Assembly: GCF_001423945.1 (NCBI RefSeq)
Contig: NZ_LMPU01000001.1
Location: 803,971-867,970 of the forward strand
Source: Pedobacter sp. Leaf194
GTDB taxonomy: Bacteria; Bacteroidota; Bacteroidia; Sphingobacteriales; Sphingobacteriaceae
DNA: 64,000 nt
Direction of reading: 5' to 3'
In this document: piece by piece, positions 31,815 to 34,099 of the stretch
How positions within the stretch are numbered: the first letter of the stretch is position 1
Layout of the letters: each line of letters starts with the position of its first letter
The notes under the pieces: model-generated
The model's database searches: none
Told to the model about the DNA's origin: nothing
What the model saw: only the letters and a program-made list of their open reading frames with translations
Program-made: the position numbers and the translations under genes

Positions 31815-31892
31815 AATGTTCAATTGTTAATTACTTTTCGAACCAGCCGTAAAATAAAATTTTATATTCGCCATACCTTAACAGAACAACGA

Positions 31893-32750
31893 ATGAAAAC
31901 ATTAATCTCTACAACTTTTGCTGTTGCTTTAGCGCTAAGTGCTTTCGCACAAAAGAGCGATGGCACTACGAAATCTTTGGTAAACGCAGAAAAAGAATTT
32001 GCAAAATCTATCGCAAAAAAAGGAGATAAAGAATCCTATATCGAATATTCTTCGGCCAATACACTTGTGTTCAGACCGAATCCGGTAAATGCAAAAACTT
32101 TTTACGCCTCGCAAACCAAAGGCTCGAATGAAGTTTCCTGGGAGCCGAATTTTGCGAAAGTATCTCGCAGCGGAGATTTGGGTTTCACCACCGGACCATA
32201 CGAGCTTGCAGGCACTGAAAAAAAATATGGTCAGTATCTTTCTATCTGGAAAGCAGAAAACGGAACCTGGAAACTGGCAATAGATTTAGGCACCGAGAGC
32301 AATAAGCCGCTTGCCAAAATGCCCAACAGATTTGAAGAACCAAAGGACCGCTTTATTCCTAAGTTCTTTAATGAAAAGGAGCAAAAAGCCAGTAAAGATG
32401 TAATTCTTACAACAGAGAAAACCTTAAATACATTTCTTAAAACACATGGAATTGCAGCCTTTGGTGGTTTCTTAACCAACAACGCCCGTTTATTGTTCCC
32501 GGGCAATGACGCGATTGAAGGTAAAGGAAAAATTCTTTCATTTTTTAATGGGATGATAGGGAAAATAAACCTGAAAACAACAGGCGTTGATAAAGCACTG
32601 GGCAGCGATTTGGCTTACACATATGGTGTTGCTACAATTGACTACAAGGCCGATTTAAGAGAAAGTTTTAATTACGTTTTTGTATACGAAAAAGCAGCTG
32701 ATGCAAGCTGGAATTTAATTGTTCAGGCCTTTGTTCCTGCTGATAGATAA
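31893..32750 (+). CDS. Exported protein with two NTF2-like (DUF4440-type) domains
   Basis: With the ATG at 31893 the protein has 285 residues and a signal peptide (LSAFAQ). A TTG-initiated reading from 31824 would place extra residues before the signal. Two successive copies of a SnoaL/DUF4440-like cone-shaped domain can be seen. The first, about 25-140, contains GDLGFTTGPYELAG and YLSIWKAENGTWKLAID. The second, about 160-285, contains SDLAYTYGVATIDY and YVFVYEKAADASWNLIVQ. Such domains bind or turn over small molecules. No catalytic residues are clear and no function is known. Confidence 0.75.
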   Translation: MKTLISTTFAVALALSAFAQKSDGTTKSLVNAEKEFAKSIAKKGDKESYIEYSSANTLVFRPNPVNAKTFYASQTKGSNEVSWEPNFAKVSRSGDLGFTTGPYELAGTEKKYGQYLSIWKAENGTWKLAIDLGTESNKPLAKMPNRFEEPKDRFIPKFFNEKEQKASKDVILTTEKTLNTFLKTHGIAAFGGFLTNNARLLFPGNDAIEGKGKILSFFNGMIGKINLKTTGVDKALGSDLAYTYGVATIDYKADLRESFNYVFVYEKAADASWNLIVQAFVPADR

Positions 32751-32770
32751 TATTTAATGTGAATTTGCTT

Positions 32771-32804
32771 AAAGGGCTCTCCGTAAAAAGTTAGCCCTTT
32801 TTTT
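32771..32804 (+). terminator. Terminator after the NTF2-like gene
   Basis: AAAGGGCT (32771-32778) pairs with AGCCCTTT (32793-32800), followed by a T run. Confidence 0.75.
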
Positions 32805-32847: not shown

Positions 32848-33735
32848 ATGAATAAAAAACTACTGTTATATACTGTATTCCTCACATTTCAGTTGTTAAA
32901 TGTATCAGCCCAGAAAAGGAAGTTCGACGTGCAGGGAAAGGCAGGCGCTCGTGGCATTGTGCCCGAGAATACAATTCAGGGAATGTTAAAGGCTTTGGAT
33001 TTGGGTGTTACCACCCTGGAAATGGACGCTGTAATTTCGAAAGACAAACAGGTGGTGCTTTCTCAGGAGCCATATTTTAATAATGAAATTTCGCTTCAGC
33101 CCAACGGAAAAGCCATTACTTTAAAAAACCAAAAGGATTTCAACATTTATAAAATGGATTATGATGAAATCAAAAAGTTCGATGTGGGAAGCAAGATACA
33201 TTCTCGCTTTCCGGGCCAAATGAAATTTAAAGTTAGCAAGCCTTTACTATCTCAAACGATTGATGAAGTTGAAGAATATGTTAAATTAAAACGGCTTCCA
33301 AAACCTGTTTATAGCATAGAAACGAAGACAATTAAAAACGGCGATAATGTATTTCACCCTGAGCCCGCAGAGTTTGTTGATTTGATAATGGATATTGTAA
33401 ATGCCAAAAAGATTTCGAAAAGGGTTATTATCGAATCTTTCGACATGAGAACGCTGCAGTACTTGCACGAGAAATACCCTAAAATACAGACTTCGTTATT
33501 AATTGATGAGAAGGAACCTTTTGAGGATTACATCGAAAAACTTGGTTTTAAGCCGACAATTTATAGCCCTTACTCTGTTTTGGTTGGAAAAGGCTTGGTA
33601 GATCGTTGCCATGAAATGGGCGTAAAAATTATTCCGTGGACAATCAACTCCGTAAAAGAAGTTAAATATTTAATGAGCCTTGGTGTAGATGGTGTAATTA
33701 CTGATTATCCAAACCTTATTGGTCAGATTAAATAA
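32848..33735 (+). CDS. GDPD-family protein lacking catalytic histidines (probable pseudoenzyme)
   Basis: This 295-residue exported protein (signal to about 21, VSAQ) has the glycerophosphodiester phosphodiesterase TIM barrel. Conserved marks include PENT (39-42), LGVTTLEMD with Glu58 and Asp60, YSIETKT, VIIESFDMRTL and GVDGVITDYP. The two catalytic positions are changed. The usual HRG of GHRGxRGxxPENT reads Lys31-Ala32-Gly, and the usual SHEP reads Ser72-Gln73-Glu-Pro. The codons confirm this (aag gca ggc; tct cag gag). Both acid/base His are therefore missing while the rest of the fold is well kept. It may be a binding or regulatory protein. Nothing suggests a frameshift or decay. Confidence 0.85.
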   Translation: MNKKLLLYTVFLTFQLLNVSAQKRKFDVQGKAGARGIVPENTIQGMLKALDLGVTTLEMDAVISKDKQVVLSQEPYFNNEISLQPNGKAITLKNQKDFNIYKMDYDEIKKFDVGSKIHSRFPGQMKFKVSKPLLSQTIDEVEEYVKLKRLPKPVYSIETKTIKNGDNVFHPEPAEFVDLIMDIVNAKKISKRVIIESFDMRTLQYLHEKYPKIQTSLLIDEKEPFEDYIEKLGFKPTIYSPYSVLVGKGLVDRCHEMGVKIIPWTINSVKEVKYLMSLGVDGVITDYPNLIGQIK

Positions 33736-33743
33736 AAACTACC

Positions 33744-33787
33744 TTAAACAAGAAATGCGCTGGTAAACCAGCGCATTTCTTGTTTAA
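33744..33787. terminator. Perfect 21-bp inverted repeat, bidirectional terminator
   Basis: TTAAACAAGAAATGCGCTGGT (33744-33764) is followed after two bases by its exact reverse complement (33767-33787). It lies between the convergent GDPD-like and small membrane protein genes, with an A/T flank in both directions. Confidence 0.85.
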
Positions 33788-33798
33788 ATATGGTGCTC

Positions 33799-33999
33799 TT
33801 AATGATGCGGAGCAGCTTCTGTTTTTTCGTGTGCTGGCATTTCAGTTTTTTCATGAGACGTTGTACCTTCCTCTTCGTGATGAAAGATTGGTCTGGTAAA
33901 TACAACGCAAAGAATTAATACAATAATCCATGCGGTTAATGGTAAAGCCCAAATGCCTGATGTTTGCTGAACTGGTGCGTGTGAATCGTGAGCTGACAT
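33799..33999 (-). CDS. Small single-pass membrane protein with His/Glu-rich tail
   Basis: This is a 66-residue protein with a 12-residue polar start, one hydrophobic helix (about 16-37, IWALPLTAWIIVLILCVVF) and a tail of about 28 residues made of His, Glu and Thr. The tail has near-repeats: SHEKTEMP and AHEKTEAAP. The clear membrane segment and start codon favour a real gene. It lies about 100 bases downstream of the MoxR ATPase gene, same strand. The histidines could bind metal, but no function is known and I recognise no family. Confidence 0.6.
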   Translation of the reverse strand: MSAHDSHAPVQQTSGIWALPLTAWIIVLILCVVFTRPIFHHEEEGTTSHEKTEMPAHEKTEAAPHH

Positions 34000-34099
34000 A
34001 TCGAATATTTTGATTTAAAATTTATGCTTTGTAATTGTGTGGTAAAGATAGTAACAAAGTTTAGAAAATAAAGGTTTGCCTTTTATTTCTAAGAAGGGT

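Follow-up and report, generated by a model that had tools for sequence, protein, structure and literature searches.

The window, the whole 64,000-nucleotide stretch of Pedobacter sp. Leaf194 DNA that was analysed, contains a gene for a predicted protein of the glycerophosphodiester phosphodiesterase (GDPD) superfamily, located downstream of a gene for a DUF4440 protein (Table 1). The reading frame is clean from its ATG start through 295 codons, as the first-pass annotation had stated, and the four strings that it quoted as markers of the fold are all present in the translation (PENT at residues 39-42, LEMD at 57-60, YSIETKT at 155-161 and GVITDYP at 282-288). The PF03009 profile matches residues 33-289 with 95.3 bits (8e-27) against a curated cut-off of 23.6, which places the protein in the GDPD superfamily, and the nearest solved structure by sequence is the GDPD of Cytophaga hutchinsonii (3ch0, E 3.8e-75). 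A GDPD-type TIM barrel was obtained as an AlphaFold2 model (mean pLDDT 78.5, pTM 0.76) built from 31 aligned sequences, the alignment having taken 30 of the 46 named loci; the model matches 3ch0 with a Foldseek E value of 7e-26 and a Z score of 22.6 (rmsd 3.4 over 229 residues). Model quality is modest, and the loop that carries K31 (residues 30-38) falls below 50 pLDDT, so that the model is uninformative on the local geometry of this loop. Residues 2-21 form a helix in the model, and Q22, the first residue past the putative export signal, is conserved at 97% or more across the genus; the protein is probably exported.

Table 1. Features of the GDPD-like gene and its upstream region (window coordinates).
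Feature	Position	Strand	Basis
DUF4440 protein, upstream neighbour	31824..32750	+	profile match, genus loci
Hairpin and T run between the DUF4440 and GDPD genes, possible terminator	32768..32804	+	sequence reading
GDPD-fold protein, probable pseudoenzyme, 295 aa	32848..33735	+	ORF, PF03009, 3ch0 sequence match, model
Putative N-terminal export signal, residues 1-21 (..VSA/QK)	32848..32910	+	sequence reading, model helix
K31-A32-G33 replacing H-R-G (general base and substrate-contacting Arg)	32938..32946	+	alignment
E58-M59-D60, metal ligands retained in the window copy	33019..33027	+	alignment
S72-Q73-E74-P75-Y76-F77-N78, Gln for the second catalytic His	33061..33081	+	alignment
E158-T159-K160, third metal ligand and Lys, retained	33319..33327	+	alignment
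D220-E221, loop after strand 6	33505..33510	+	model strands, genus conservation

The order cysS, sometimes a gene of the M28 family, DUF4440, the GDPD-like gene, MoxR and SurA recurs at loci of the genus, and this shared gene order supports the orthology of copies with differing active-site patterns. A DUF4440 gene is found on the same strand within 600 nt upstream at 132 of 142 loci and at 610-1020 nt at four others, and gave no hit in the fetched stretch at the remaining six. Two copies (L058 and L208) lie outside the cysS-DUF4440-MoxR context, and in one genome (G061) the DUF4440 gene is about 26 kb away. The DUF4440 protein was considered as a functional partner and rejected, because its relatives are widespread (178 of 201 family genomes, 19 of 25 genera), the comparison GDPDs showed no DUF4440 neighbour in their flanks (mostly 1.5 kb), and the two genes are separated by a possible terminator; the adjacency is treated here as shared gene order. 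The hairpin of this possible terminator is absent from the list of a consensus terminator scan, in which the longest loop was 8. By a crude rule applied without a control, a hairpin with a T run is present no more than 250 nt upstream at 115 of 140 loci, a count that is given no weight here. Right past the stop codon, a 20-pair palindrome (33743-33788) resembles a terminator on the minus strand, and a 66-amino-acid frame just 3' of the gene (33801-34001, minus strand) would encode a small protein with one membrane-like helix and a tail rich in His and Glu that ends in APHH; similar sequence was found at 66 of the 136 loci searched.

In the HMMER alignment, residue 19 of the GDPD of T. tengcongensis (2pz0) falls on residue 33 of the window protein, an offset of 14, by which K31, A32, E58, D60 and Q73 correspond to His17, Arg18, Glu44, Asp46 and His59; E158 and K160 match Glu111 and Lys113 of the P. 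furiosus GDPD, judged by their E-x-K spacing. According to PMC4926365, on the P. furiosus enzyme, the general base and acid are His17 and His59, the metal is held by Glu44, Asp46 and a third Glu, and the substrate is contacted by Arg18, Glu111 and Lys113. The first-pass annotation had proposed that both catalytic histidines are replaced, and the alignment bears this out, with K31-A32-G33 in place of HRG and S72-Q73-E74-P75 at the second site. Beyond that proposal, the Arg of the first site is also gone (A32), and the metal ligands E58, D60 and E158 are retained along with K160. The catalytic motif given in PMC4926365 as HR(X)nEN(X)nExD(X)nHD thus reads KA..EN..ExD..QE in the window protein.

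Orthologues matching at E <= 1e-60 are present in 142 of 145 Pedobacter genomes, including all 132 good-quality genomes; the three genomes with no match are 79-84% complete. The best match was fetched from each of the 142 genomes, and all are at least 56% identical to the window protein; L003, which duplicates the window gene (L007), was removed, and the named loci L097-L141, which repeat genomes already counted, were excluded from per-genome counts. Seven active-site positions were scored (31, 32, 58, 60, 73, 158 and 160; canonical residues HR/ED/H/EK), and none of the 142 orthologues has the complete set, each unique sequence keeping between two and six of the seven. There are 26 patterns, the most frequent being KA/ED/Q/EK (60 orthologues), NR/KE/Q/EK (11) and QR/GN/H/EK (8), followed by NR/NN/Q/EK, HR/ED/Q/EK and HQ/NG/H/ES with seven each; in the seven orthologues that read HR..ExD..Q, His73 is the sole active-site residue missing. 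Both catalytic histidines are gone from 100 orthologues and one from 22, and the 20 that keep both have lost other residues. All three metal ligands are retained in 67 orthologues, and at least one is missing in 75. The existence of a K-A-G/SQEP subfamily, which had been put forward as something to check, was confirmed within the genus, where K31-A32 occurs together with Q73 in 61 of the 142 orthologues. K31 and A32 are found only as a pair (61 of 61 unique rows), a pairing suggestive of a charge swap.

The main evidence against treating the group uniformly as pseudoenzymes comes from the 20 orthologues with both histidines. Six of these (L052, L158, L163, L183, L186 and L189), with the pattern HQ/DD/H, have both histidines and acidic residues at positions 58 (Asp for Glu) and 60, with Arg32 replaced by Gln and K160 lost; these six would be the best candidates for residual activity, and weak activity is possible in them. 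Another subgroup, reading QR, DR, SR or NR followed by GN/H (L193, L190, L199 and L185 among them), has Gly58 and Asn60 in place of metal ligands and His73 present; position 31 is occupied by H, Q, D, N or S within the GN/H subgroup, a natural series of drift at one site. The most divergent members of the genus, L058 and L208 (56-57% identity), have the pattern NR/KE/A. A search for the KAG/SQEP group beyond the genus by the motif [S/T/..]QEP[Y/F]FN gave matches in 116 of 400 genomes of the order, 102 within the genus and 14 outside it; four of the outside matches were read (L233-L236), none of which is a GDPD frame, and this candidate extension was rejected.

The comparison set of 41 sequences comprised 35 from genomes of other genera (sampled from 91 non-genus genomes matching at E <= 1e-40), one unplaced Bacteroidetes metagenome-assembled genome (L142), three paralogues from the genus, and the window genome's own paralogues L001 and L002. 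The active site is complete in 40 of the 41, the remaining one reading HQ/ED/H/EK. The canonical L002-type paralogue has a complete active site at all of its 30 best loci, and each of the five other GDPD-family genes of the window genome has both HRG and HD. As far as the sampling reaches, the loss of active-site residues is therefore confined to this one group of orthologues, and a degenerate GDPD may still occur among the other matches outside the genus. L001 and L002 resemble the window protein in having a PF03009 domain, similar length and an N-terminal export-like signal, with 38-42% identity, but differ from it in possessing the full HR/E-D/H/E-K set.

A quick maximum-likelihood tree was computed from 119 rows with the seven active-site columns removed. 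Of the 56 unique rows with at least 80% identity 12 were taken, together with the remaining 86 genus rows and 21 of the 41 comparison rows. All 98 genus rows form one group (SH-aLRT 100), and the distinction between complete and incomplete active sites requires a minimum of one change on the tree. The fewest changes at positions 31, 32, 58, 60, 73, 158 and 160 are 11, 4, 17, 8, 3, 1 and 6, respectively, in counts that are blind to gain versus loss, on a tree in which many inner branches are open and the comparison rows include long branches.

The gene is clearly under strong purifying selection. Its median dN/dS by the Nei-Gojobori method, among the named loci, is 0.037 (45 loci, 311 of 990 pairs usable), as compared with 0.030 for cysS (40 loci), 0.020 for MoxR (39), 0.049 for SurA (33), 0.067 for DUF4440 (43) and 0.069 for M28 (36), where pairs were usable at dS 0.1-2, exclusions fell unevenly among the gene sets, and the values are rough because dS is near saturation in many pairs. 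An earlier count from 56 unique rows gave a median of 0.044 (586 of 1540 pairs). The canonical paralogue has a median of 0.081 in a separate set of 30 loci, partly from other genomes, and so the L002 type evolves faster than the pseudoenzyme in the sets compared. With this constraint and its presence in every good-quality genome, the gene is one that selection has kept.

Residues lost by the genus are enriched at the active site, and a different set has become fixed. Among the 57 positions conserved at 95% or more in the comparison set, 16 drop below 90% in the genus, including six of the seven active-site positions and 10 of the 50 others (Fisher P 0.0013). N156 and Q196, also among those dropped, lie at the ends of strands 4 and 5 and would be adjacent to the pocket by the logic of the fold. 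Fifteen residues are specific to the clade (at least 95% in the genus, below 25% in the comparison set): A34, E74, F77, K93, R120, K152, I162, F169, Y205, D220, E221, Y242, G247, K270 and Y274. Loops that follow strands make up the catalytic face in barrels of this type. By the strands of the model, nine of the fifteen are in such loops, and the loops account for 56 of 269 positions (P 0.0007, with the regions chosen post hoc). S72, E74, P75, F77 and N78 are invariant in 142 unique genus sequences, as are R35, K248 and W264, and also D220 and E221, which are rare among active relatives. E158 is retained in 141 of the 142 and W264 in all, as in active relatives, so chemistry in the pocket could still take place. 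Histidines at other positions that might fill the catalytic roles, which would have told against the first-pass annotation, were sought. Only His118, His207 and His255 exceed 90% occurrence in the clade, and they are found in 13, 36 and 33 of the 41 active relatives, respectively; none of the clade-fixed histidines is thus new, and no histidine has migrated in as a replacement.

The loss of residues, the orthology, the conservation and the selection are established from sequence; we infer that the protein is exported, lacks the ancestral activity and binds through a remodelled surface. Its function is very probably something other than the original phosphodiesterase reaction, and we consider it likely to be a GDPD pseudoenzyme of the genus core that is retained as an exported binder or scaffold. 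The first-pass annotation had offered a pseudoenzyme kept for binding or else a changed reaction; its retained pseudoenzyme is supported by sequence and by the strength of selection, and its two proposed roles are weighed here as interpretations. An active exported glycerophosphodiester phosphodiesterase probably lost its phosphodiesterase function in an ancestor of the Pedobacter orthologues. At least 26 combinations would then have arisen by drift at the acid/base, Arg and metal positions, with fixation of the barrel and of a new group of residues that surround its mouth. The interaction surface would be this remodelled mouth, with E74, F77, I162, D220, E221, Y242 and G247. In the window copy, E58, D60, E158 and K160 probably still hold a divalent metal, a ligand of the glycerophospho type may also be bound and left uncleaved, and Lys31 may stand in for the lost charge of the Arg.

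A bolder account, which we hold tentatively as possible, is that the barrel was rebuilt for a new envelope function of essential grade, either by binding an envelope ligand as its receptor or as an enzyme with different chemistry; its site would comprise the same seven mouth residues together with the kept E158 and W264, and the old catalytic residues would vary freely, the old site having lost its importance. A changed reaction, in which the acids E74, E158, D220 and E221 at the mouth form a new catalytic site with R35, K248 and W264, seems unlikely: all of these residues except E158 are invariant, E74, D220 and E221 are rare among active relatives, and the selection matches that on enzyme genes, but the searches made gave no GDPD-fold enzyme with such a set of residues, and a binding surface fits the fixed rim equally well.

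That the protein is still a phosphodiesterase, with Lys31 as the base and the kept metal site doing the remainder, could draw on the four retained residues of the window's clade, with its exact pattern in 60 of the 142 orthologues and all three ligands in 67, but it is very unlikely, since Q73 could not donate a proton as His59 does in the mechanism of PMC4926365, and Lys31 and metal ligands are missing from orthologues at the same locus (at least one ligand in 75), so that the orthologues would then have different jobs. The five complete GDPD-family genes of the window genome might instead suggest a helper, either an activator or a decoy, of a canonical paralogue in the same cell. This is quite unlikely, given that the closest paralogue type tested, L002, was found in only 105 of 144 genus genomes (E <= 1e-90) as against 142 of 145 for the pseudoenzyme, and is therefore not an obligate partner. 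We give almost no credence to gene decay or sequencing error, for which nothing speaks except the lost catalytic residues themselves: the K-A and Q73 replacements are common to 61 of 142 genomes, the frames are open with no stops listed inside orthologue matches, and dN/dS is low, results that together already refute this reading.

GDPD pseudoenzymes are a kind already known, due to the inactive paralogue MPN566 of Mycoplasma pneumoniae. According to PMC3178575, MPN566 is a paralogue of GlpQ that is inactive when purified and exists alongside an active GlpQ; it has lost Trp-36, Glu-38, the HD motif (Asn-51 and Leu-52 instead) and Phe-110, and its knockout is reported to have no phenotype. As described there, MPN566 is like the Pedobacter group in being a GDPD paralogue with lost active-site residues, the HD motif included, but it belongs to another lineage, whereas the Pedobacter group spans a genus and shows many patterns of replacement. 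The plant GDPDL/SHV3 proteins are likewise GDPD-related extracellular proteins, with roles in cell wall organisation as reviewed in PMC6726743, and GDPDL1 differs in that the same review reports a hydrolysing capacity for it. Among structures, 3ch0 carries HRG at its first site and His at its second, in contrast to the KAG and Gln of the window protein. The GDPD-like part of a beta-glucanase (7ww4 and 7wwc) matches the model with Z scores of 20.2-20.3; the literature search found no carbohydrate-binding precedent for this part, and the link was set aside. PMC4666044 deals with Sphingobacterium proteins annotated as GH16. No publication on a Pedobacter GDPD pseudoenzyme was found in the open-access literature searched, and as far as these searches go, what is new is a lineage spanning the genus in which many active-site states exist in parallel under strong selection. 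The family name, or labels such as GDPD and GlpQ, would mislead metabolic models of Pedobacter.

Most pseudoenzymes are single examples next to an active paralogue. The genus Pedobacter offers instead a natural series, from orthologues with one residue gone (HR..ED..Q), through those with both histidines gone and the metal site present (as in the window), to those in which the metal site is gone too, under selection near the strength of that on cysS. The series makes testable what a TIM-barrel enzyme retains after its catalysis ends.
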